Source of the DNA: a virus
Reading direction: 5' to 3' (one strand)
Length of the DNA: 20,571 nucleotides
Virus record (IMG/VR): IMGVR_UViG_3300024433_000079
Span: 1-20,571 of that record
A program made the position numbers and the translations under genes. The stretch's first letter is position 1. Every line of letters starts with the position of its first letter. The notes beneath the pieces were generated by a model. The model did no database searches. It saw nothing but the letters and a program-made list of their open reading frames with translations, and was not told the DNA's origin. Below are positions 968 to 20,353 of this stretch, piece after piece.

Positions 968-1456
968 ATGAAGAAGAGAAAAGTGGGCAGGCCATCCAAC
1001 AAAGATAAGATTTCGCTAAAACAACTTGAAAAACTTGCTGGATATGGGCATACTGATAAAGAGATTGCTGATATTATTGAAATATGTGTAGCATCCCTCA
1101 AAAATTACAAATCCAACCCAAAATTTTTAGCTGCCTTAAAAAGCGGTAAAGAAAAAGCCGATAACTATGTTGTTGGTAGTCTTTTCCATAGGGCAATCGG
1201 CTATACCCATCCAGAAATACAAACATTCTGCTATAAGGGCAAAATAGTTACCGCTAAGGTCTTAAAACATTATGCACCTGACCCAACTTCTGCTATTTTC
1301 TGGCTTAAAAATAGGAAACCAGCTAACTGGCGAGACAAACAAGAAATAGCCCATACCGGCTTAACTCTGGCCCAAGTAATCAAAAATGTTACCAATGGGA
1401 ATGCCGACAATAAGCGAACAGAAGAAGTTCGTCCAGATTTACAAAGACAATCCTAA
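968..1456 (+). CDS. terS: Terminase small subunit
   Basis: Recognises phage DNA and recruits the large subunit for packaging. The 162-residue product begins with a basic AT-hook-like stretch (KKRKVGRPSNKDK). A helix-turn-helix-like region follows at about residues 20-50 (KQLEKLAGYGHTDKEIADII). The C-terminal signature of this terminase family is clear: RAIGYTHPE, KHYAPDPTSAIFWLKNR, and NWRDKQE. The family assignment is from memory of these motifs. It overlaps the large subunit gene by about 70 bases, the usual arrangement. The start is uncertain: ATG at 968 is used here, but TTG at 959 in the same frame adds three residues, and neither has a strong ribosome-binding site. Confidence 0.85.
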   Translation: MKKRKVGRPSNKDKISLKQLEKLAGYGHTDKEIADIIEICVASLKNYKSNPKFLAALKSGKEKADNYVVGSLFHRAIGYTHPEIQTFCYKGKIVTAKVLKHYAPDPTSAIFWLKNRKPANWRDKQEIAHTGLTLAQVIKNVTNGNADNKRTEEVRPDLQRQS

Positions 1457-3812
1457 GCGTTTTTTCCTTGAAAGGCTTAAAGTAAAAGAGCTTTGGCAGG
1501 GCGAAGATATTATCCTTGAAACTGTTAAGGAACATAAAAAAGTTGCTGTTGCTTCTGGACACGCTTTAGGTAAAGATTTTATAGGCGGTGGGCTTCCTTT
1601 ATGGTTTCTACTTACCAATTATCCTTCCAAAGTAATTATCAATGCTCCTTGTTCAGATGCAGAAACAGAGATATTAACTGAAAAAGGATGGTATAAATTT
1701 CCTAATTTGCCTCATAATATTGCAGTAGCAACATTAGAAAAAGGACAATTGATTTATCGAAAGCCCACAGATTATATTGAATATGATTACAAGGGCTATT
1801 TGTTGGGGTTAAAAAGCAAGCGATTGGAATTTCTGGTAACACATAATCACCGATGCTACGTAAAAAAGCGATATAGCAATCATTATGAAATAAAACAAGC
1901 GGAAGATATATTTGGTAAGGATGTTTACTTCAATCAAGAAATTTTGTGGACTGGAAATGATTGTGGTTTTTCCAATAGCCAATTAGAGCTTTTTGGATTT
2001 TGGTTTGGGGATGGATATGTTAGGAATTCCAACAGACGATGCGATGTCGTTTTTACCCAATCTAAATATCCAGATTATATAAGGCAATTACTTGTCAAAA
2101 ATAAAGAAACTTTTAGTGAATATCAAAAAAATAAAAGATTTGATTTTGTAATTTATAGTAAACAAAAAGCAAATTTTTATATAAGTAATTTTATTGGTGA
2201 AGGTAAAAAAACAATACCTAATTGGCTCAAGCAAGCTAAGCCTTCCCAAATTTGGTCATTTTTATATGGGCTCTTTATGGCCGATGGTTCTTTTGCTAAT
2301 GGAGATAGGACTAAAACAGATAGAATTAGAATATATGGCGATAAACAACAGGCAGATGATATTTATGAACTGATAATTAAATCTGGCCGTATTGCGAATA
2401 TGACTACAAGAAAAGTTAATCGGATTTCTTATTTGAATGGAAGAAGGATTGAAAGCAAGGCTGATGAATATGACATACGAATATTGAGGCAAGGTAAAAA
2501 GGTTCGTTCTGGTAAAAGACGATATTGGTATAAAAAGAAATATATCGGAAAAGTCTATTCGGTTACTGTGCCTTCGGGTATTGTTCTTATTCGTAGAAAT
2601 GGCAAATATCATTGGACAGGAAATACCGACCGTCAAATAGAAGCAATTATGTGGGCTGAATTAACAGGTCATTATGAACACGCAGGAGGCAAGAATGTAG
2701 TAGGTGGAGAATTATATGCTCGAAAACTTGTATTTGATGAGAAAAATTGGTTTTGTATTGCTTTTACAACAAAGGAAACTAAAGGACAAATAGGCAAATT
2801 CCAGGGTTTCCACAGTTCTAATATATTAATAATTGTTTCTGAGGCTCAAGCAGTAGATGATGAAATTTTTGGGCAGATTGAAGGAATTATGACTTCTGAA
2901 AATTCCCGTCTTGTGCTTTTTGGTAACCCCCTACGAAATACTGGTTTTTTCGCCAGAGCTTTGCGTGAAACGAAATTAAGTTTTAAGGCCATTCATTTGG
3001 ATTGTCGGGATAACCCCAATTATGTTCAAAAAAGAGAAGTTATTCCAGGTTTGGCAAGTTATCAATGGGTTGAAGATATGCGCAAGCGACACGGAGAAGA
3101 TAGCCCTATATGGCAGGCGAGGGTTGAAGGGAAAATTCCAGATACTTCAATTGATACTGTAATTGCCTATAGTTTGGCTACACAAGCAAAAAATCGTTAT
3201 CCCATCTATGATATAATCAGAAACATAAAAATTGTTTCTGTAGACCCAGCCAGCTTTGGAGACGACGAAATAGTTATCTATTTGATTGAAGATGGCAAGA
3301 TAACTGATTGGGATATTTGGCTTAAGCCTTCTTCATTGGTTTCTGCAACGGGTGAAATAATCGGTCGAGCTCTTTTAATGAAAAAGAAGCACGAGGCCGA
3401 TGGTTTTGTAGTTGATGGTATAGGGGAAGGTCGAGGCGTAGTAGATGGTTTGATAGATGCTAAGGAGAATGTCATAGAATTTAAAGGTTCTTTTGCGCCT
3501 CAAAGTTATTTAAAAGATGACTATCAAAATCTCCGGGCAGAGGCGTGGTTCTTATGCCGTGATGAATTAGTAAAAGGTTATGGCAGTATTCCAAATGACG
3601 AGATATTGATAGAGGAACTAACAGAGCCTAAGTATTTTGTTAATCGTAGAGGTAAATATCAAATTGAAGAGAAAGAAGAATTGAAAGAAAGACTTAAACG
3701 TTCACCTAACAGGGCAGATGCTTTTGTGCAGGGAATATGGGCTTTACCGCAAATTAAAGCAAGAAAAACCGGTAAATACAATCCCCAGCCCTGGCAGTTA
3801 CAAACGGCATAG
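1386..3812 (+). CDS. terL: Terminase large subunit interrupted by an intein
   Basis: The ATP-driven packaging motor and headful nuclease. The 808-residue precursor holds a 325-residue intein (residues 89-413), so the spliced protein is 483 residues, normal for the family. The ATPase half has a P-loop-like segment at residues 57-64 (SGHALGKD) and a Walker B region near 480-488 (ILIIVSEAQ), then LFGNP at about 511-515. The nuclease half has VSVDPASFGDDE (about 617-628), FVVDGIGEGRGVVDGL (about 674-689) and PNRADAF near the C-terminus, supplying the acidic metal-binding residues. Two oddities: the P-loop ends GKD rather than GKT/S, and Walker B has Ser485 where Asp is usual. ATGs at 1386, 1395 and 1401 are in frame; the longest is given, though 1401 (MPTISEQKK) is also natural. 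Confidence 0.93.
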   Translation: MLPMGMPTISEQKKFVQIYKDNPKRFFLERLKVKELWQGEDIILETVKEHKKVAVASGHALGKDFIGGGLPLWFLLTNYPSKVIINAPCSDAETEILTEKGWYKFPNLPHNIAVATLEKGQLIYRKPTDYIEYDYKGYLLGLKSKRLEFLVTHNHRCYVKKRYSNHYEIKQAEDIFGKDVYFNQEILWTGNDCGFSNSQLELFGFWFGDGYVRNSNRRCDVVFTQSKYPDYIRQLLVKNKETFSEYQKNKRFDFVIYSKQKANFYISNFIGEGKKTIPNWLKQAKPSQIWSFLYGLFMADGSFANGDRTKTDRIRIYGDKQQADDIYELIIKSGRIANMTTRKVNRISYLNGRRIESKADEYDIRILRQGKKVRSGKRRYWYKKKYIGKVYSVTVPSGIVLIRRNGKYHWTGNTDRQIEAIMWAELTGHYEHAGGKNVVGGELYARKLVFDEKNWFCIAFTTKETKGQIGKFQGFHSSNILIIVSEAQAVDDEIFGQIEGIMTSENSRLVLFGNPLRNTGFFARALRETKLSFKAIHLDCRDNPNYVQKREVIPGLASYQWVEDMRKRHGEDSPIWQARVEGKIPDTSIDTVIAYSLATQAKNRYPIYDIIRNIKIVSVDPASFGDDEIVIYLIEDGKITDWDIWLKPSSLVSATGEIIGRALLMKKKHEADGFVVDGIGEGRGVVDGLIDAKENVIEFKGSFAPQSYLKDDYQNLRAEAWFLCRDELVKGYGSIPNDEILIEELTEPKYFVNRRGKYQIEEKEELKERLKRSPNRADAFVQGIWALPQIKARKTGKYNPQPWQLQTA
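1650..2624 (+). mobile_element. Intein with LAGLIDADG endonuclease inside terL
   Basis: This in-frame 325-residue insertion excises itself from the terminase and encodes a homing endonuclease. The N-terminal junction is VIINAP/CSDAETEILTEKGW, with Cys1 as nucleophile. Block B is FLVTHNHRCYV (about intein residues 61-71, TxxH). Two LAGLIDADG motifs are visible, LFGFWFGDG (about 114-122) and LYGLFMADG (about 205-213). Block F is VYSVTVPSG (302-310), and the C-terminus is RNGKYHWTGN with the terminal Asn followed by Thr as +1 residue. Joining the exteins gives INAP-TDRQIEAIMW, a normal terminase sequence, which fixes both junctions. The penultimate residue is Gly rather than the usual His; His321 lies close by. 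Because both LAGLIDADG motifs are intact, the endonuclease is probably active. Confidence 0.92.
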
Positions 3813-3824
3813 AAAGGATATTAA

Positions 3825-4124
3825 ATGGCAATCAAAGTAATCCCAGTAGGCGACAGACTCTTAATTAAACGAGGCCTTACGCCGGAGAAGACCAAAGGCG
3901 GTATTGTAATTCCCGAAACATCCAGAATGAATACCGAAGTGGCTAAGGTGGTATTTGTATCGCCTGAGGTGAAGGATTTTAAAGAAGGTGATATAATTAT
4001 TTGCGGAAAATATTCAGGAATTTCGCTTGATATCGAAGGTGAAGAATTTACGCTTTTGAGAGCAGAGGATGTCGTCGGAAAAATAATAAGCATTGAGGAA
4101 AATAGTGAGAAAGAAAAACGGTAA
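3825..4124 (+). CDS. groES: GroES-type co-chaperonin
   Basis: A 99-residue protein, the usual length for GroES, preceded by AAAGGAT. GroES caps the GroEL chamber for protein folding. The start VIPVGDRLLIKR matches the family N-terminus. The mobile loop that contacts GroEL is KTKGGIVIP (about residues 22-31). The C-terminal half keeps GDIIICGKYSG and the closing LLRAEDVVGKI. No GroEL is in the window, so it would work with the host chaperonin. T4 gp31 is the known precedent for a phage co-chaperonin needed to fold the capsid protein, and the same job is inferred here from the location among head genes. The HNH gene starts within its last codons. Confidence 0.92.
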   Translation: MAIKVIPVGDRLLIKRGLTPEKTKGGIVIPETSRMNTEVAKVVFVSPEVKDFKEGDIIICGKYSGISLDIEGEEFTLLRAEDVVGKIISIEENSEKEKR

Positions 4125-4812
4125 ATATCTATTCTGCAATTATTGCGGAAAAGAATTTTATGTTACAAAAAAACGGATTGAAGATGCCAAATATTGTTCT
4201 TGTGAATGTTATTGGAAATCTTTAAAGGGTAGAAAACTTTCTGAACAACATAAAAAGAAAATAAGTTTAAGTTCAAAGCCCAATAGTGGTCAGTTTCAAA
4301 AAGGATATAAATCTTGGAATGTAGGAATTAAAAGTTGGGTTAAGCCTTGGCTTGGTAAACATCGTTCTGAAGAAACTAAAGGAAAACTTAGAAGTTTTAT
4401 GAAAGGAAGACATCATTCTTCGGAAACCGAATTTAAAAAAGGCCAATTTTCAAAAGAGAAACATCCTAACTGGAAAGGTGGAATTACTCTACTTTGGAAT
4501 AGAATTAGAGGTTTAGTTGAATATCAACAATGGGTTAAAGAAGTTTTTAAACAGGATAATTACATTTGCCAAATATGTTATAAAAGAGGCGGAAAACTAA
4601 ATGTTCATCATAATACAAAATCTTTTAGTGTTATTTTACAAGAATTTTTAAAAGAATACAATCAATTCTCACCTATAGAGGATAGAGAAACTTTGGTAAG
4701 ATTAGCAATGAAATATCAGCCCTTTTGGGACATAAATAATGGAATTACTTACTGTGTAGAATGTCATAAGAAATTTCATAAAGCACAAAGGAAAGAGGCT
4801 CAAAATGTCTAA
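4105..4812 (+). CDS. HNH homing endonuclease with NUMOD3 motifs (free-standing)
   Basis: A 235-residue site-specific endonuclease. The N-terminus carries a Cys-rich finger (CNYCGKEF...YCSCECYW). Basic NUMOD3-type DNA-binding motifs follow (LSEQHKKKISLSSKP, RSEETKGKL, HHSSETEFKKG, HPNWKGG). The C-terminal HNH nuclease is CQICYKRGGKLNVHH...NNGITYCVECHKKFH, with metal-binding Cys pairs and the HH of the active site. GTG at 4105 is chosen because GAGGA (about 4095-4099) is well placed; TTG at 4093 is an in-frame alternative. It overlaps GroES upstream by 20 bases and the next gene downstream by 8, so it is inserted without disrupting either. Its NUMOD3 string resembles that of the endonuclease at 19641-20204. 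Confidence 0.85.
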   Translation: MRKKNGKYLFCNYCGKEFYVTKKRIEDAKYCSCECYWKSLKGRKLSEQHKKKISLSSKPNSGQFQKGYKSWNVGIKSWVKPWLGKHRSEETKGKLRSFMKGRHHSSETEFKKGQFSKEKHPNWKGGITLLWNRIRGLVEYQQWVKEVFKQDNYICQICYKRGGKLNVHHNTKSFSVILQEFLKEYNQFSPIEDRETLVRLAMKYQPFWDINNGITYCVECHKKFHKAQRKEAQNV

Positions 4813-5053
4813 TGAAACCACCCAGGACCAGAACGATAACAAAGACCAGTTAATCTTTCAGGCTACCCTAACCCCGGATAAGAAAATCAAGGTTGAGGTC
4901 AAGAGCAGTAACCTTATGGGCTTATCTTACGCCTATAAGCTCTTAGGCCTGCATATAGATAATATCATTATCGGCCAGGTTATGCCCAAACCTAAGATTG
5001 TTAAGATAGGACAAGGTGGATTGCAGAGTTTGAGGAGGTTTTTGAATAATTGA
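4805..5053 (+). CDS. Hypothetical protein, 82 aa
   Basis: ATG at 4805 overlaps the HNH stop, with GAGG about six bases upstream. The protein opens with a hydrophilic Gln/Asn/Asp-rich segment (TTQDQNDNKDQ). A beta-rich stretch follows (LIFQATLTPDKKIKVEVKSS), then a helix-like LSYAYKLLGLHIDNIIIGQV. The C-terminus is basic (KPKIVKIGQGGLQSLRRFLNN). No family recognised. It lies between GroES and the portal, apart from the two endonuclease genes, so before their insertion it was probably directly part of the head operon. Confidence 0.6.
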   Translation: MSNETTQDQNDNKDQLIFQATLTPDKKIKVEVKSSNLMGLSYAYKLLGLHIDNIIIGQVMPKPKIVKIGQGGLQSLRRFLNN

Positions 5054-5151: not shown

Positions 5152-5523
5152 ATGAATAGACAAAGTTTTTTAGCAGGTTTAATTTGTGGTGAAGGCAGTT
5201 TTTTTTATTATATATCTAAAGGCAAAAAAGCTCCAAGATTTAGATTTATGGTTCAAATGCACAAACGAGATTATATGCCTTTAGTTTTATTATCCGAAGA
5301 ATTGGGTGTAGGAAAGATAAGAAATCTTAAATATCGTCCTACTATGTGTAGATTTGAAGTTACAACCTTTGAAGAAAATGTTAAGAAAGTAATCCCTTAT
5401 TTTGATGGACAATTGATTGGATATAAAAAAGCACGATTTGAAATGTGGAAAGAAAAATTGCTTAAATATTATTATGCCAACCATAAAGAGAGAAAAAAAT
5501 TTGCAAGTGCTCTAAAATATTAA
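5152..5523 (+). CDS. LAGLIDADG endonuclease, single-motif type (free-standing)
   Basis: A 123-residue protein with GGGGAGA as ribosome-binding site. It has one LAGLIDADG motif at residues 5-15 (SFLAGLICGEGSF), whose final acidic residue would bind the catalytic metal. The rest has the expected mix, including a basic RFRFMVQMHKRDY and a C-terminal helix (IGYKKARFEMWKEKLLKYY). Single-motif enzymes of this size act as homodimers (I-CreI type, from family knowledge). I looked for group I intron core pairings in the flanks and found none, so it appears free-standing between head genes. Its ATG overlaps the stop of a possible 15-codon frame starting at 5108. Confidence 0.83.
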   Translation: MNRQSFLAGLICGEGSFFYYISKGKKAPRFRFMVQMHKRDYMPLVLLSEELGVGKIRNLKYRPTMCRFEVTTFEENVKKVIPYFDGQLIGYKKARFEMWKEKLLKYYYANHKERKKFASALKY

Positions 5524-10990: not shown

Positions 10991-11244
10991 ATGCCTATTC
11001 AAAGAAGCACACTTCCGGAGACTCTTGATGCCAACTTGAACGAAATCTGGATGGATGGAAAAGACCGTTGGCCAGAAGAGTATTCCAAAGTTTTAGTGGT
11101 GGAAACATCTACTAAGGCTACAGAGAAAGACAGTTATCTTTCGGGGTTTGGAAAGTTCCCGGAAAAGACTGAAGGTTCAGCAGCACAATACGATACTGTT
11201 TATCAGGGGCCAAGCAAGACGTATGTAATGATTACGTATGCGCT
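10991..11244 (+). CDS. Major capsid protein, exon 1
   Basis: The first exon supplies 84 codons plus two bases of the major capsid gene. The start is MPIQRSTLPETLDANLNEIW, after GGAGAG. The exon ends ...QGPSKTYVMITYA + CT, where the split Leu codon (CT/A) is completed by exon 2. Joining 10991-11244 to 12047-12701 gives 909 bases, exactly 303 codons including the stop, so a 302-residue protein, close to Mu gpT-like capsid proteins (about 305). Without splicing the frame reads into the intron and stops at 11320, giving a truncated 109-residue product lacking most of the fold. Confidence 0.88.
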
Positions 11245-12046
11245 AAATTTACTTGGCGTCCTCAAAAGTAATTTTGAGGTAAGAAAGAAAGCTATATCGG
11301 TGGAACCCCTATTTACATAGGGCAATACCGAGGGAAGGCTGGAATGGAAAGAGAAATTAGATTAGGTTGGTTGGCCGGAATATTGGAGGGCGAAGGAAGT
11401 TTTCAAATCAATAAAGCAGGAAGTAAAAGAAAACACTTTGTCTATGGTATTGCTATAACCAATTCTGATTTAATAATTTTGGGTAAATGTAAAGAGATAT
11501 TAGAAGAAAATGGTATCTCTTGTAGTTTATACCCAGGAAAGATTTATTATAAGCATCGTAAAAAAATTTACAATCTGGTTATACGCCGTATAGATGATTT
11601 AGTTAAATTACTTACTATCATCTTGCCGTATTTAATCGGACAAAAGAAATCACAGGCAAAAATTATGTTAGATTTTCTAACAAGGAGAAAATATCTAACA
11701 GAGGCTAATAAGAATTTTAGCCCAAGACAAATTGCCTATGATGATGTTGACAATGCTTATTTTAAATCATTAAAAGCTCTAATGCATAATCCAGCCCCTG
11801 TAGAGACTATTACGCTTTCTACCCATACTAAAATTGCTAAAACTTGTCAGATAGAAAACTGTAACGCTAAATATTATGCTAAGGGATACTGCCAAGAACA
11901 TTATGAAAAATTGGTTAAATATCCCAAAGACAAGTTAAGAGAAGCATTGATGGGTAAAGATAGAGTCCGAGCTGGCAAGCAATTGCCAGAGTTGGCAGAA
12001 ATGACTAACCGCCTTAATTAAGTTAAGGTTATCAAGTAACAGGTTG
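11245..12046 (+). ncRNA. Self-splicing group I intron in the major capsid gene
   Basis: The 802-nt insertion has a full set of group I pairings. P1: exon GCGCT (11240-11244) with guide GGCGT (11255-11259), ending in the required U-G pair. P2: 11260-11267/11272-11279. P3: AGAAAGC (11286-11292)/GCTTTCT (11814-11820). P4: TCGGT (11297-11301)/ACCGA (11327-11331). P5: CCCTAT (11307-11312)/ATAGGG (11317-11322). P6: GGCTGG (11337-11342)/CCAGCC (11791-11796). P7: GACT (11805-11808) with AGTC in 11962-11968, weaker. P8: ACCCAT (11821-11826)/ATGGGT (11950-11955). P9: CTGGCA (11972-11977)/TGCCAG (11984-11989). J8/7-P7' reads AAAGATAGAGTCC, close to the classical signature. P10: exon 2 AGGT (12047-12050) with ACTT (11251-11254). 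The last intron base is G. Confidence 0.92.
11344..12021 (+). CDS. Intron-encoded LAGLIDADG homing endonuclease
   Basis: A 225-residue endonuclease presumably cleaving intron-less capsid alleles. The LAGLIDADG motif is at about residues 7-18 (GWLAGILEGEGSF). The nuclease fold continues through ITNSDLIILGKCKEILEENG and LVKLLTIILPYLIGQKKSQA. The C-terminal part holds a small Cys/His element, CQIENCNAKYYAKGYCQEHY, typical of phage nuclease DNA-binding tails. The gene starts just after the 5' strand of P6, with GGGAAGG (about 11332-11338) as likely SD. It does not stay in one loop: codons after about 150 also form P6', P7, P3', both strands of P8, P7' and P9, and the Cys/His element lies in the P8 loop. 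It stops 25 bases before the 3' splice site. Confidence 0.88.
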   Translation: MEREIRLGWLAGILEGEGSFQINKAGSKRKHFVYGIAITNSDLIILGKCKEILEENGISCSLYPGKIYYKHRKKIYNLVIRRIDDLVKLLTIILPYLIGQKKSQAKIMLDFLTRRKYLTEANKNFSPRQIAYDDVDNAYFKSLKALMHNPAPVETITLSTHTKIAKTCQIENCNAKYYAKGYCQEHYEKLVKYPKDKLREALMGKDRVRAGKQLPELAEMTNRLN

Positions 12047-12701
12047 AGGTTATGAAATCACCGAAGAAGCAATTGAAGACAATCAGCATTCCGCTGATAG
12101 CTTCAATCAGTTTCCTGCGGCCTTGAGTGACAGTGCGCAAGAAACAATAGAAGTATTAGCAGCCGATGTGATAAACAACGGCTGGTCGTCAAGTTATAAC
12201 GGCCCTGATGGAGTGCCTCTTTTTTCAACGGCACATCCTAATGTGGGTGGCGGAACACAGGGCAATACACCGTCAACTCAAGCCGACCTGTCTGTAACTT
12301 CTCTACAGGCAGCGTTACAGACCATTGAGGATATGACGGACGAACGTGGTAAAAAGGCAATGACAAAGGCAGTTCTTTTGGTTGTGCCTACTGGTAATAT
12401 GTGGACGGCACACGAATTGCTGAAGTCGGAATACAAGCCTTATGTCGGAAATAACGAAGTCAATGCGCTTCAGATGAAGGATTTAACATACTTTATTTAC
12501 CACTATATGACAGATTCTGATTCTTGGATCCTTCTGGCGCAAAAATCTAAACTGAAGATTAAGTTCTTCTGGAGAGTAAAACCGGGTGCATTAAGGCGTG
12601 GAACGGATTTTGACTCTACTAACCTAAAGCACTTGGCAAGATTTAGATGTGATGCTGATTTCTCGCATTACATTGGAACCTACGGCTCGCAGGGAGCGTA
12701 A
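12047..12701 (+). CDS. Major capsid protein, exon 2
   Basis: Exon 2 begins with A, completing the Leu codon, then reads GYEITEEAIEDNQHSADSFN. An in-frame TGA overlapping the splice junction (12045-12047) shows the frame cannot come from upstream without splicing. The body shows the Mu gpT-like capsid pattern: LAADVINNGWSSSYNGPDGVPLFSTAHP, ALQTIEDMTDERGKKAM, LLVVPTGNMWTAHELLKSEY, NNEVNALQMKDLTYFIYHYM and WILLAQKSKLKIKFFWRVKPG. A gene caller working without the intron would start it falsely at TTG 12123 and lose 25 conserved residues. The spliced product forms the capsid shell and is the probable client of the phage GroES. Confidence 0.88.
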
Positions 12702-17430: not shown

Positions 17431-17952
17431 TTATTTATTTTTTCCAAGAAGCGAACCTTTTGGATAATGAAATCTATGATGTGCACTTGCATTTTTGAAC
17501 AATTTAAGATTTTCTGGTCTGTCGTCATTACGAATACCGTTAATATGATGCACAATTTCTTCAGGCTTAAGAAATCTGCCTATCTTTTTCTCCATAACAA
17601 GATGACTTCGGCGAACATATCCAGTTTTCGTAGCAAAAGGATGAAAAGGTTGAAAAATATGAACATATCCTTGATTGTCTTTAATTTTTCCGTTTTTCCA
17701 ATGGCCTGCTTTGTTGCCTCTTTGTCCTTTTTTAAAACTACCCGAATTAGGCTTACAAAGTCCCTTAGTATTTTTATTCCACGGAATAGGCATAACTCCT
17801 TTTTTGTTTTTATTCCACGGTATATGACCTTTGGGAAAATGATGCCCTTGTTTATGTCCTTTTTTAAAAATAGATTTAGGAAGGTGTTTTTTCACTCCTT
17901 CTTTAATTTTTCTTTTGTGTTTTTTAGTTTGTTTATAACCTTTTTTAGGCAT
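17431..17952 (-). CDS. NUMOD3/HNH endonuclease, minus-strand module 1
   Basis: A 173-residue endonuclease transcribed against the late operon. The N-terminal two-thirds are Lys/Gly/His-rich NUMOD3-like DNA-binding units (KQTKKHKRKIKEGVKKH, FKKGHKQGHHFPKGHIPWNK, repeated PWNKNxKG). The HNH domain is GYVRRSHLVMEKKIGRFL, EEIVHHINGIRNDDRPENL, then LFKNASAHHRFH, with His-His-Asn at the active site. ATG at 17952 is preceded by GGAGG (17962-17958 on the minus strand); a TTG four codons upstream overlaps that SD and is rejected. It is paralogous to the endonuclease at 19641-20204 and is driven by its own promoter and structured leader. Its stop touches the tail gene's stop, so neither gene is damaged. 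Confidence 0.85.
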   Translation of the reverse strand: MPKKGYKQTKKHKRKIKEGVKKHLPKSIFKKGHKQGHHFPKGHIPWNKNKKGVMPIPWNKNTKGLCKPNSGSFKKGQRGNKAGHWKNGKIKDNQGYVHIFQPFHPFATKTGYVRRSHLVMEKKIGRFLKPEEIVHHINGIRNDDRPENLKLFKNASAHHRFHYPKGSLLGKNK

Positions 17953-18066
17953 TTTATCCTCCAAAAAGTAAGGACAGTTTTCGGTGAGTTAAAGAGAATA
18001 CAGTTATGTATTCAACACCTACGACTGCCCTTGATTAGACATAAAAAATCTGCACTCTCTTTAACT
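17953..18066 (-). ncRNA. Pseudoknotted leader RNA of HNH module 1
   Basis: Read on the minus strand from about the transcription start. Stem a (18066-18056, AGTTAAAGAGA) pairs with a' (17997-17987, TCTCTTTAACT), 11 of 11. Hairpin d is GATT...AATC (18050-18033) around a conserved loop. Stem b (18032-18024, AAGGGCAGT) pairs with b' (17978-17970, ACTGTCCTT), one G-U pair. Hairpin c pairs GAATACA with TGTATTC (18013-17996). The order a-d-b-c-a'-b' makes a and b a pseudoknot. The leader ends eight bases before the HNH SD. No promoter or fold of this type is known to me for these genes. Confidence 0.65.
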
Positions 18067-18072
18067 AATTGT

Positions 18073-18102
18073 AGTATAGCATATAAATTAGGAGTATGTC
18101 AA
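18073..18102 (-). promoter_or_regulatory. Sigma-70 promoter of HNH module 1
   Basis: On the minus strand, TTGACA (18102-18097) is an exact -35. TATACT (18078-18073) is a one-off -10, with an 18-base spacer. Transcription would start near 18066, the first base of stem a. The -35 overlaps the start-codon region of the oppositely oriented LamG gene. Confidence 0.75.
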
Positions 18103-19322
18103 TGAAAAAATTATTTTTAGCAATACTTTTGTTATTCACCTTTTCAAGTTCCACTTCTTATAGTGATAGCGTATCTTTTTACGAGGAGTATGGAGTAAAC
18201 TCAGAGGTGAATTGGCTAAACCTAAATGGTAACCTGCGCGCCTTAATTAACTGGGCTAATGGTGGGATTTCAAATGTTAACCTAAAAACCGGCTTCCGTA
18301 TGATTGAGATATTAGGCGACCTTCCAGTTCCAGAAGTTCCAGGTAGAGTAGTTTATCTTACTACGGATGACGTGCTTTATATCGACGACGGAGGTGCTTT
18401 TTGGGGCTCGGCTACTTACGCAGGCACACCCGCTCAAGGCGAAATGCTGGCATTCAACGGCACGAACTGGGTTCGCTTGGGCGTAGGCACAGCAGGAGAT
18501 ATATTAAAAAGTGGTGGTGCAGGAGCAAATATTTCTTGGCTTACAACTTTGCCTATTGCCAATGGTGGAACTGGCACTACATCAGGGACAGGAGGAACAG
18601 CAGGCGGCGACCTGACAGAGACATATCCTAATCCTTTAGTAAGCATTCCTGCGAGGTATTATGAACCCGACGCCTGTTGCGTTCTTGCTTTAGGTGGGTA
18701 TAATGCCGACCCTACTGCTGCTGTGTATAAGGACTTAAGCGTCTATAGAAATGATTTTACTATAACTTCTGCTCCTCCAGAGGCAGAAGGAAAGGTGAGC
18801 AAGACCTGTATAGATTTAGATGGTGAAGCCGATTATATTGAGAGAGCGGCGATAGACTGTGCTGATTTTGGAGATATGGATAACATTACTATAGAACTGT
18901 GGATTAAGTTTGATGCACTCACTACAGTCCAATATATTATTCATAATGCCAGCAGTGGAACCGGAATAGGGTATTTGCTTTTTCTGGGGACAACGACTGA
19001 CAAACTATCTTGGCAGACAAAAGGAGGTGCAGGGCTTGTAACTTTCAGTTCCGATGATGCTATTACCGATACCGACTGGCATTATATCGTGCTGACTTAT
19101 GGCATAACTGCCCATACGATGAGGATATATATAGATGGGGTCGCCTCAGGAACTAATGATACACAAACAGGGGATATCAATGCGGCAAACGATGAAAATT
19201 TTACAATCGGGGCAACTAATGTCCACGCCTGTTGCGTTAATGGAAAAATAGATGGCTTCCGAATCCTCCGAAGAGTTATGTCAGCGGCGGAGATATTAGC
19301 GAGATATAATGCATTTAAGTAA
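18102..19322 (+). CDS. LamG-domain tail fibre/host-binding protein with signal peptide
   Basis: A 406-residue protein. ATG at 18102 is used because AGGAG (18090-18094) is seven bases upstream; ATG at 18096 is too close. The N-terminus MKKLFLAILLLFTFSSSTSY + SDS looks like a Sec signal peptide. A fibre-like Gly/Thr-rich linker follows, with ANGGTGTTSGTGGTAGGDLT and ETYPNPLV (the GGDLxGTYPNPxV motif common in phage fibres). From about residue 235 a concanavalin-like LamG/jelly-roll domain is clear: CIDLDGEADYIERAAIDCAD, ITIELWIKFDAL, DTDWHYIVLTYGI, MRIYIDGVASGT and GKIDGFRILRRVMSAAEILA. Such domains bind glycans or surface protein (family knowledge). A role in receptor recognition is inferred. 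Confidence 0.8.
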   Translation: MKKLFLAILLLFTFSSSTSYSDSVSFYEEYGVNSEVNWLNLNGNLRALINWANGGISNVNLKTGFRMIEILGDLPVPEVPGRVVYLTTDDVLYIDDGGAFWGSATYAGTPAQGEMLAFNGTNWVRLGVGTAGDILKSGGAGANISWLTTLPIANGGTGTTSGTGGTAGGDLTETYPNPLVSIPARYYEPDACCVLALGGYNADPTAAVYKDLSVYRNDFTITSAPPEAEGKVSKTCIDLDGEADYIERAAIDCADFGDMDNITIELWIKFDALTTVQYIIHNASSGTGIGYLLFLGTTTDKLSWQTKGGAGLVTFSSDDAITDTDWHYIVLTYGITAHTMRIYIDGVASGTNDTQTGDINAANDENFTIGATNVHACCVNGKIDGFRILRRVMSAAEILARYNAFK

Positions 19323-19376
19323 ATGGCAAAACAAAAACAGTACAAAGACGGGAAGTTTGAGAAGAAGGAAAAGTGA
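19323..19376 (+). CDS. Possible 17-residue peptide
   Basis: ATG immediately after the fibre stop encodes MAKQKQYKDGKFEKKEK. Its TGA overlaps the GTG of the next gene, a coupling arrangement. There is no SD, so translation would depend on re-initiation. It may be a leader peptide or a relic. Confidence 0.25.
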   Translation: MAKQKQYKDGKFEKKEK

Positions 19377-19666
19377 TTGAATACCTCATCGATGACAAGG
19401 ATAATAAATGTGTTGCCTTCTTAGAATATCATCTAACAGACAGCGACGGGAAACTTAAAAATGGCGGGGAGTATTTGTATTTTAGGGAATTGTGGTGCTA
19501 TAAATCAGGCAACGGGCTGGCTAAACAACTTGTCCGACGGATTTATGATAAAACGCCAAGTGCCAGATTTGCTTATTGGAAACGAGAGAAGTTTTCGGGA
19601 CGGATGAAAACTATAATAAAAGGGAGGCTATTAAAATGGCTTACAAGGTGCGACCATCAAAAATAA
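19373..19666 (+). CDS. GNAT-like small protein
   Basis: A 97-residue protein starting at GTG (19373), with AAGGA three to eight bases upstream. It reads MIEYLIDDKDNKCVAFLEYH, GEYLYFRELWCYKSGNGLAK, then a basic C-terminus (ARFAYWKREKFSGRMKTIIK, GRLLKWL). The 'yl-LW-h...lk.li...fW.REKy.gR.k' pattern matches short acetyltransferase-fold proteins found beside phage tail-fibre genes; the acetyl-CoA loop is not convincing, so activity is doubtful. It ends 26 bases into the region where HNH module 2 begins on the other strand. The last residues (TRCDHQK) look less typical and may have changed when that module inserted. Confidence 0.5.
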   Translation: MIEYLIDDKDNKCVAFLEYHLTDSDGKLKNGGEYLYFRELWCYKSGNGLAKQLVRRIYDKTPSARFAYWKREKFSGRMKTIIKGRLLKWLTRCDHQK

Positions 19667-19701
19667 TTTCATCAGATTTCATTCCTTTTTGGATAATATG
19701 A
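19636..19701 (+). pseudogene. Start of a gene apparently cut off by HNH module 2
   Basis: GGGAGG (about 19622-19627) precedes ATG at 19636, which reads MAYKVRPSKIISSDFIPFWI and then stops. The SD and start look real, but the frame ends inside sequence homologous to HNH module 1. The last residues of the HNH2 protein (FDGRTL) are the antisense of this gene start, suggesting the module landed here and its reading frame ran out into the old gene. Confidence 0.35.
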
Positions 19702-20204
19702 AACTTTCTATGAGCCCCCATATTTTTGAAGAGCATAAGATTGTCAATACGGTTATCGCTTTTAATTTCGTTAATATGATGCACAACTTCTTCACGAGTA
19801 AGATAGCGTCCAATCGCTTTTTCCATTACAAGACGATGCTCGCGAACATATCCTTTACATTCACAAAAAGGATGTTTGGGTTTGAAAATAAAGATATACC
19901 CATAACCGCCCTTAGTTTTTCCGCCTTTCCAATGAAAAGCATTTTTACCAGAAAGATGTTTACCAAATCTATGATGTTTTTCTCCTCTTGGCATAAGTTC
20001 TGGATGAAGTTTAGACCAAGATATATGTCCCTTTTTAAATTCAGTTGTAGGCGAATGATGTTTGCCAAGATTACCTTTACTTATTTTTTTCTTGGTTTTT
20101 TCAGAAAGTATTTTACCTGTATTGCTTGGAATATGTCCTTTTTTAAATTCTGTATCAGGAGAAATATGGTGTCCTTTTATAAATCTTCCCAATTTATCAC
20201 GCAT
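19641..20204 (-). CDS. NUMOD3/HNH endonuclease, minus-strand module 2
   Basis: A 187-residue paralogue of the module 1 enzyme. NUMOD3-like units come first (LSEKTKKKISKGNLGKHHS, TTEFKKGHI, KNAFHWKGG). The HNH domain follows: GYVREHRLVMEKAIGRYLT, EEVVHHINEIKSDNRIDN, then LFKNMGAHRKFH. The catalytic His-His and Asn positions are the same as in module 1. ATG at 20204 has GAGGT (20215-20211) at good spacing. The string HHSPTTEFKKGH is shared with the HNH at 4105-4812 (HHSSETEFKKGQ), suggesting module exchange. The C-terminal tail after AHRKFH is longer than in module 1 and reads into a broken plus-strand gene start. Confidence 0.85.
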   Translation of the reverse strand: MRDKLGRFIKGHHISPDTEFKKGHIPSNTGKILSEKTKKKISKGNLGKHHSPTTEFKKGHISWSKLHPELMPRGEKHHRFGKHLSGKNAFHWKGGKTKGGYGYIFIFKPKHPFCECKGYVREHRLVMEKAIGRYLTREEVVHHINEIKSDNRIDNLMLFKNMGAHRKFHIIQKGMKSDEIIFDGRTL

Positions 20205-20317
20205 TATATTACCTCAAATATAAGGGCGACTTTCAGGTTGTTAACGGAAATACGGTTAAGTGTTTCCACCTTACTCATCGCCCAGATTAAACATAAAAAA
20301 TCCGTAAGTCCGTTAAC
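20205..20317 (-). ncRNA. Pseudoknotted leader RNA of HNH module 2
   Basis: Same architecture as the module 1 leader, on the minus strand. Stem a (20317-20309, GTTAACGGA) pairs with a' (20248-20240, TCCGTTAAC), 9 of 9. Hairpin d (20302-20285) is 17 of 18 identical to module 1. Stem b (20283-20278, GGGCGA) pairs with b' (20229-20224, TCGCCC). Hairpin c pairs GGAAACAC with GTATTTCC, one mismatch (20267-20246). Stems a, b and c differ in sequence from module 1 yet remain paired, so the fold appears to be maintained. The SD lies nine bases past b'. Confidence 0.65.
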
Positions 20318-20324
20318 TGATTTA

Positions 20325-20353
20325 AGTATAACATATTAACTAATAGATGTCAA
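20325..20353 (-). promoter_or_regulatory. Sigma-70 promoter of HNH module 2
   Basis: On the minus strand, exact TTGACA (20353-20348), spacer 17, TATACT (20330-20325). Transcription would start near 20317, at stem a. As in module 1 the -35 forms the edge of the module, right before the next plus-strand gene's SD. Confidence 0.78.

Follow-up and report, generated by a model that had tools for sequence, protein, structure and literature searches.

A family of pseudoknotted leader RNAs with two exclusive pairings upstream of phage homing-endonuclease genes

The window analysed here is the whole 20,571-nucleotide (nt) stretch of the IMG/VR virus record IMGVR_UViG_3300024433_000079, a 20.6-kb virus record in which a domain scan finds an SU10-like portal gene. 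Two separated units on its minus strand share one order of parts: a near-consensus promoter, a 114-nt leader, a Shine-Dalgarno (SD) sequence and an HNH nuclease gene. A first-pass annotation made from the sequence alone had described these units, here called cassettes 1 and 2, and they are present where it placed them, with the promoter elements TTGACA and TATACT and leaders of 114 nt. Their promoters are the top two of a promoter scan. Read from 5' to 3', the leader RNA consists of the 5' strand of a long helix P1 (segments a and f), a U-rich block with AUGUCUAAAA, the 5' strand of stem b, (RA)GUA, the 5' strand of helix e, the 5' strand of hairpin c and UUAA, followed by a shared 3' strand, e', GAAA, b', a U/A-rich stretch of 6-12 nt, the SD and the AUG. 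The features are as follows.

18073-18102, minus strand: cassette 1 sigma-70-type promoter (TTGACA 18102-18097, 18-nt spacer, TATACT 18078-18073)
18066-17953, minus strand: cassette 1 leader, 114 nt
18050-18066, minus strand: cassette 1 P1 5' strand (a + f), AGTTAAAGAGAGTGCAG; 17-bp P1
18033-18049, minus strand: cassette 1 conserved U-rich/AUGUCUAA block (earlier "hairpin d"); sequence conserved, pairing unsupported
18024-18032, minus strand: cassette 1 pseudoknot stem b, 5' strand, AAGGGCAGT
18020-18022, minus strand: cassette 1 GUA of the b/e internal loop; invariant
18016-18019, minus strand: cassette 1 helix e, 5' strand, GGTG
18008-18015, minus strand: cassette 1 c 5' strand, TTGAATAC; its partner is also that of the competing P1 top
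18004-18007, minus strand: cassette 1 c loop, conserved UWAA-like segment (here AUAA)
17987-18003, minus strand: cassette 1 shared 3' strand; P1 3' strand (f' + a'), its first part alternatively c'
17983-17986, minus strand: cassette 1 helix e, 3' strand, CACC; pairing in the 23-leader alignment
17979-17982, minus strand: cassette 1 GAAA of the internal loop; conserved
17970-17978, minus strand: cassette 1 stem b, 3' strand, ACTGTCCTT; pairing in the 23-leader alignment
17958-17962, minus strand: cassette 1 SD, GGAGG, by sequence
17431-17952, minus strand: cassette 1 HNH_3 homing-endonuclease-type gene, 173 amino acids (aa), by open reading frame (ORF) and Pfam
17467-18105, plus strand: antisense open frame through the cassette 1 HNH gene, leader and promoter; its stop overlaps the next gene's start (ATGA)
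20325-20353, minus strand: cassette 2 promoter (TTGACA 20353-20348, 17-nt spacer, TATACT 20330-20325)
20318-20205, minus strand: cassette 2 leader, 114 nt
20302-20318, minus strand: cassette 2 P1 5' strand, AGTTAACGGACTTACGG; pairing in the 23-leader alignment
20284-20301, minus strand: cassette 2 conserved U-rich/AUGUUUAA block, by sequence conservation
20277-20283, minus strand: cassette 2 stem b, 5' strand, GGGCGAT; pairing in the 23-leader alignment
20268-20274, minus strand: cassette 2 GUA and helix e 5' strand AGGT, by pairing and conservation
20256-20267, minus strand: cassette 2 c 5' strand GGAAACAC and loop UUAA, by pairing and conservation
20240-20255, minus strand: cassette 2 shared 3' strand (P1 3' strand or c'); both pairings covary
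20231-20239, minus strand: cassette 2 helix e 3' strand (AACCT) and GAAA, by pairing and conservation
20224-20230, minus strand: cassette 2 stem b, 3' strand, GTCGCCC; pairing in the 23-leader alignment
20212-20215, minus strand: cassette 2 SD, GAGG, by sequence
19641-20204, minus strand: cassette 2 HNH_3/NUMOD3 homing-endonuclease-type gene, 187 aa, by ORF and Pfam
19689-20339, plus strand: antisense open frame running through cassette 2

The HNH_3 model matches the protein of cassette 1 with E=1e-7 (31.7 bits) and that of cassette 2 with E=2e-10 (40.7 bits; curated cut-off 24.8), and NUMOD3 is found in the latter with E=1e-4 (22.6 bits, cut-off 20.4). All Pfam matches in the two window proteins are of HNH type and none is to a RuvC or other RNA-guided domain, which agrees with the earlier statement that the protein lacks RuvC. 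Relatives of a flanking gene in the window were also searched for and none were found.

Homologues of the leaders were searched with a profile of the two window copies against loci fetched with the HNH proteins, and it matched the same position ahead of the HNH gene in five of these loci. The follow-up search used DNA patterns from the conserved blocks over IMG/VR and one genome collection; since these patterns were derived from the leaders themselves, divergent members may be missed, and the loci are often fragments. A covariance model yields 23 distinct leaders, with 38-84 bits, from the window and 16 other phage contigs. Several contigs carry more than one leader: two each in the window, L186, L184 and the L032 contig (L032 and L260), and three in L236. 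The median pairwise identity of the 23 leaders is 0.61 and the closest pair reaches 0.92. All of them precede a His-Me/HNH nuclease gene at the same place, one such gene being decayed.

The window leaders had no match up to E=5 among the 4227 families of Rfam 15, eight homologous loci gave only one weak match up to E=3, which lies outside the leader, and a blastn search with the leaders over 50,697 phage records returned chance-level matches only. From these comparisons, the window leaders are members of a new structured-RNA family of about 100 nt in uncultured tailed phages. The first-pass annotation had proposed a covariance model, a search for relatives and a screen of Rfam, and had named a lack of homologues, a lack of covariation and an Rfam match as outcomes that would speak against it; homologues and covariation were found and an Rfam match was not. 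The only hint of a host comes from a single leader contig, L114, which was binned in an Omnitrophota metagenome-assembled genome. A spread of the family in bacterial genomes was considered and rejected, with a match in just one of 384 genomes of the phylum of this bin, on a contig as long as the viral contig L114.

Pairing statistics were taken from a hand alignment of the 23 leaders. Stems a, b and c of the earlier description exist in both window leaders, and stem a extends into the 17-bp helix P1 (15-17 bp among the members), in which 95.6% of the cells are paired and 16 of 17 pairs are doubly changed. Stem b is 99.3% and helix e 99.0% paired, and the inner pairs of helix e vary freely between GC, UA and CG. 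In P1, b and e together 97.1% of 615 cells are paired, 27 of 31 pairs show a change of both bases in one member or more, and there are 178 doubly changed cells compared with 48 in shuffles. The covariation score of these helices is 0.735, against at most 0.14 when slid, and a slide by a single column lowers the pairing to about 45%. Furthermore, in swap tests with the first 16 leaders each helix pairs better within its own leader than with the partner strand from another (0 of 100,000 permutations). The earlier proposal that compensatory change marks a selected RNA fold is thus borne out by the wider set of leaders. Of its order of elements, a-d-b-c-a'-b', the pseudoknot is supported; helix e had been missed, stem a is about 17 bp long and hairpin c excludes the extension. 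The 18-nt block called hairpin d is indeed 17/18 identical between the two window copies; as a helix it has no double changes, equal to shuffles, and therefore no covariation support although its sequence is conserved.

Stem b and helix e flank a nearly invariant GUA/GAAA internal loop, with GUA in 23/23 leaders opposite GAA in 23/23 and an A before the GUA in 19. This putative loop E/bulged-G-like motif is recognised by resemblance. The conserved unpaired stretches are UUUUU, GUA, UUAA and GAAA. An upstream ORF was also considered, as an AUG in the conserved block and a stop in GUAA delimit 6-8 codons in the window copies and several others. It was ruled out as a conserved feature, with the AUG replaced by AUA, GUA or UUG in L186a, L194, L184a and L002 and the frame gone in L032, L023, L028, L190 and others.

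On the HNH strand, G-U pairs outnumber A-C pairs by 62 to 4, which indicates that the RNA in nuclease sense, made from the HNH promoter, is the selected strand. The same excess rules out an inverted repeat acting at the DNA level, such as a protein operator or a cruciform. A sigma-70-like promoter is found in front of all 23 leaders, with its -10 element ending 5-8 nt before P1. Given this fixed distance, the folded RNA should start at the first transcribed bases, which leaves a 5' guide no space and would make cleavage at the 5' side of stem a largely pointless.

Two of the pairings in the leader exclude each other. Columns 73-78 pair either with columns 10-15, the top of P1, or with columns 61-66 as hairpin c. 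Hairpin c is 92% paired with all six pairs doubly changed, and its covariation score of 0.767 compares with at most 0.23 when slid. The competing part of P1, columns 10-14 with 74-78, is 87.7% paired and scores 0.779 against at most 0.33. In permutations the observed values are 88 for the middle of P1, compared with 63 +/- 4, and 101 for hairpin c, compared with 69 +/- 4, neither being reached in 20,000 trials. Moreover, C15-G73 and C66-G73 have both turned into U-A in two leaders. Sequence relatedness can inflate covariation and permutation tests; the 17 different c' strings among the 23 leaders and the slide controls argue against relatedness as the cause of the double covariation. The contested segment of P1 has 21% G-U pairs and 12% mismatches, compared with about 3% and 1% in stem a, and holds most of the G-U pairs and mismatches. 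Such a weakened segment is expected if two pairings must remain balanced, and we read both pairings as kept by selection for a balance of the two folds. The computed energies overlap, with -16 to -24 kcal/mol for P1 alone and -9 to -22 kcal/mol for the b-e-c arm (pseudoknots left out). The leaders carry what is expected of a bistable leader, namely two exclusive and conserved pairings.

On balance, and with modest confidence, we favour the view that the leader is a bistable element of the 5' untranslated region (UTR) which regulates expression of the homing endonuclease in cis by strand exchange. The cassette would be a self-contained unit of promoter, RNA and nuclease gene, with the RNA forming the 5' end of the messenger. 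During transcription hairpin c could form first; stem a would then nucleate, after which branch migration could let the top of P1 take over from c. The resulting state, which the b/e pseudoknot and perhaps a bound factor would stabilise, would set the nuclease yield from the SD, which lies 6-12 nt past b, with translation or transcription as the controlled step. Leader regulation gains support from phage homing endonucleases elsewhere that are controlled by leader RNA structure (PMC2988022, PMC3014915). Among the earlier suggestions, regulation of endonuclease translation comes closest to this, with the difference that translation is not singled out from transcription.

Several points weigh against bistable control. 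The hand alignment was guided by the helices, so that the tally of paired cells leans towards structure; the slide control answers this bias only partly. General sequestration of the SD was not found: the mean SD:b' pairing probability is 0.22 over the 23 leaders, and it is near 0 in seven of them, with 0.60 in w1 and 0.94 in L184b. No intrinsic terminator was scored at either window leader, and the U-rich run behind b varies from member to member. Furthermore, hairpin c could be a mere folding intermediate with no regulatory role, and the present data point to neither a ligand nor a protein.

The alternative that survives best, albeit as an unlikely one, is a static pseudoknotted 5' cap that protects the end of the messenger or keeps the ribosome site open, with hairpin c as a transient. 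It fits the position of P1 at the expected transcription start in 23/23 leaders and the short, A/U-rich stretch between b and an SD that is not generally sequestered. A simple protective hairpin would nevertheless require less than an invariant internal loop, a conserved c loop and two exclusive pairings that are each conserved.

Quite unlikely, in our estimate, is autoregulation through the leader as a binding site, with repression of the messenger by its own HNH product or by some other phage or host protein, in the manner of gp32 of T4. As in the T4 gene 32 leader (PMC3014915), a 5' pseudoknot comes before A/U-rich sequence at the SD, and feedback would benefit a toxic nuclease. The nucleases themselves speak against a site specific to them. 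Seven of ten further cassette proteins are HNH_3-like (five above the curated cut-off and two below), some with NUMOD3; the other three are a PF01844-type HNH protein, a weakly Endonuclease VII-like one and one with no good Pfam match and a readable HNH motif. A common nuclease-specific site would be hard to keep across such unrelated HNH proteins (HNH_3/NUMOD3, PF01844, Endonuclease_7-like, short HNH); another phage or host protein could still be the binder.

Most HNH relatives lack the RNA. Out of 96 further HNH-relative loci, 95 have no leader match and the single match, L030, duplicates the leader of L028. HNH genes do not need the RNA leader. Since unrelated nucleases share the RNA and most relatives are without it, the RNA is the constant part of the cassette and the nuclease the variable part. 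At L114 2780-2960 (= L123) leader and promoter are intact, whereas only a C-terminal remnant is left of the HNH gene. Antisense HNH genes with their own promoter-like site, zero antisense stops and no RNA leader were seen at L025 ~2830-2890 and L031 ~2860-2905.

The opposite strand of the cassettes has a signature of its own. Leucine and serine codons that read as stops in complement (TTA, CTA, TCA) make up 11 of 327 in cassettes antisense to their neighbours, 41 of 115 in cassettes with same-strand or mixed surroundings and 351 of 1071 in HNH control genes on the strand of their neighbours (p ~1e-17 against the other cassettes and ~1e-33 against the controls, relatedness ignored). The antisense open frames are codon-aligned and usually continue through leader and promoter, as in the window, L002, L104, L225, L194 and others. 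In L104, L002 and L225 the opposite frame is continuous with that of the structural gene downstream, and a good SD and ATG lie beyond the cassette. The L104 cassette (4192-4960) separates the SD/ATG of a structural gene from its signal-peptide-like region, and the gene remains open across it. In a related phage (L032 ~1743-1746) the two neighbouring genes of L104 are directly adjacent with an ATGA overlap, and this junction looks like the empty site of the L104 cassette. We infer that keeping the opposite frame open lets translation of the operon proceed through the insertion, and the codon avoidance offers a measurable signature of a selfish gene lowering its cost inside an operon. More tentatively, and as a possibility only, the cassette may be a new kind of phage selfish element built for both strands: one strand would hold the promoter, a bistable RNA switch and an HNH nuclease swapped between elements while the RNA stays, and the frame on the other would be open so that translation of the late operon, and at times of an interrupted structural gene, passes straight through. 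Antisense protein coding was rejected as the cause of leader conservation, as the opposite-frame peptides differ between two groups of leaders (KHKKS-like and DIKxP-like).

Two side observations concern the surroundings of the cassettes. In the window (18085-18108, plus strand) the spacer of the minus-strand promoter holds the complement of the SD of the next plus-strand gene (TTAGGAG), and similar overlaps occur in L186a and L188. The near-identical phages L225 and L229 (93.8% over the 2.8 kb compared) diverge around the cassette (L225 3087-3537); their leaders are identical, as are the 500 bases that follow the HNH gene, a pattern that might mark a conversion tract.

Most cassettes run antisense to late operons, and this orientation also bears on an antisense regulator, in which the leader would pair with the mRNA of the late operon or be built to resist such pairing. 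The nuclease gene is antisense to its neighbours in 17 of 22 RNA-bearing cassettes, compared with 7 of 59 HNH genes without the RNA. We hold this role to be distinctly improbable, since the same RNA also occurs in five cassettes whose surroundings are same-strand or mixed, and the antisense cassettes of L025 and L031, with promoters of their own, do without it. A guide or scaffold RNA acting in trans with the HNH protein, like omegaRNA with IscB, is very improbable: the conserved RNA does lie directly beside an HNH gene and cassettes are repeated in single phages, but no RNA-guided domain and no variable guide-sized segment before the structure were found, and the sharing of the RNA by unrelated nucleases and its absence from most relatives count against it, so that the HEARO/omegaRNA-IscB analogy of the first-pass annotation is not supported. 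A small self-cleaving ribozyme, HDV-like (hepatitis delta virus) or new, that processes the leader is equally hard to credit despite a compact pseudoknot with several conserved unpaired stretches, as no Rfam ribozyme family matches, P1 has 15-17 bp, the HDV P4 element is absent and the cleavage once suggested at the 5' end of stem a would, at the predicted transcript start, free almost nothing.

Other selfish genes lie in the window. A LAGLIDADG gene (11344-12021, plus strand) has a short ORF (10991-11320) on one side and a head-protein-like ORF (12123-12701) on the other. The layout (10991-12701) looks like a capsid gene interrupted by an intron or intein; none of the group I intron models of Rfam matched. 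An 808-aa ORF (1386-3812, plus strand), possibly the large terminase, contains a LAGLIDADG_3 match, which would fit an intein, and further endonuclease-like ORFs are found at 4093-4812 and 5152-5523. These ORFs indicate that selfish genes are dense in this 20-kb record.

We know of no conserved RNA families tied to homing endonucleases outside introns and IscB-type systems. Neither Rfam nor a small search of the open-access literature gave a conserved RNA family tied to phage homing endonucleases. Homing endonucleases are common in phages, and a ~100-nt RNA with two conserved exclusive pairings would make a directly testable natural RNA switch.

Among known systems, free-standing HNH_3/NUMOD3 homing endonucleases share the gene type, the intergenic dispersal and the several copies per phage; unlike them, the present cassettes carry their own sigma-70-like promoter and RNA and are often antisense with an open opposite frame. 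HDV-like ribozymes have a similar stem order with a pseudoknot, whereas the present RNA has the extra helix e, strand exchange and a 15-17 bp P1 at the transcript start, and neither P4 nor an Rfam HDV-like match. In HEARO/omegaRNA with IscB or IsrB, too, an RNA adjoins an HNH-type gene in mobile DNA; the present system is without RuvC protein or guide, its RNA is much shorter and the Rfam HEARO model gives no match. With riboswitches and other bistable leaders the RNA shares exclusive pairings and a conserved unpaired core in the 5' UTR, and it differs in having no known ligand, only HNH/His-Me nuclease genes downstream and no consistent expression platform found. The autoregulatory pseudoknot of T4/T2 gene 32 also lies in a leader upstream of an A/U-rich initiation region (PMC3014915); the present RNA has another topology, a much larger conserved core, another gene and no known protein ligand. 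In T4-like phages, hairpins hide the ribosome site of homing endonucleases until a late promoter is used (PMC2988022, PMC3014915), and in the leaders of I-TevI, segB and Aeh1 mobE an RNA structure controls, or is thought to control, translation. Those are simple SD-hiding hairpins in read-through transcripts and contain the late promoter, whereas here the promoter precedes a pseudoknotted RNA, which stops short of the SD and forms a conserved family. The RNA is not one of those hairpins, as its b' pairs with the SD in some members only. The present RNA resembles these T4-like leaders in position and probably in purpose.

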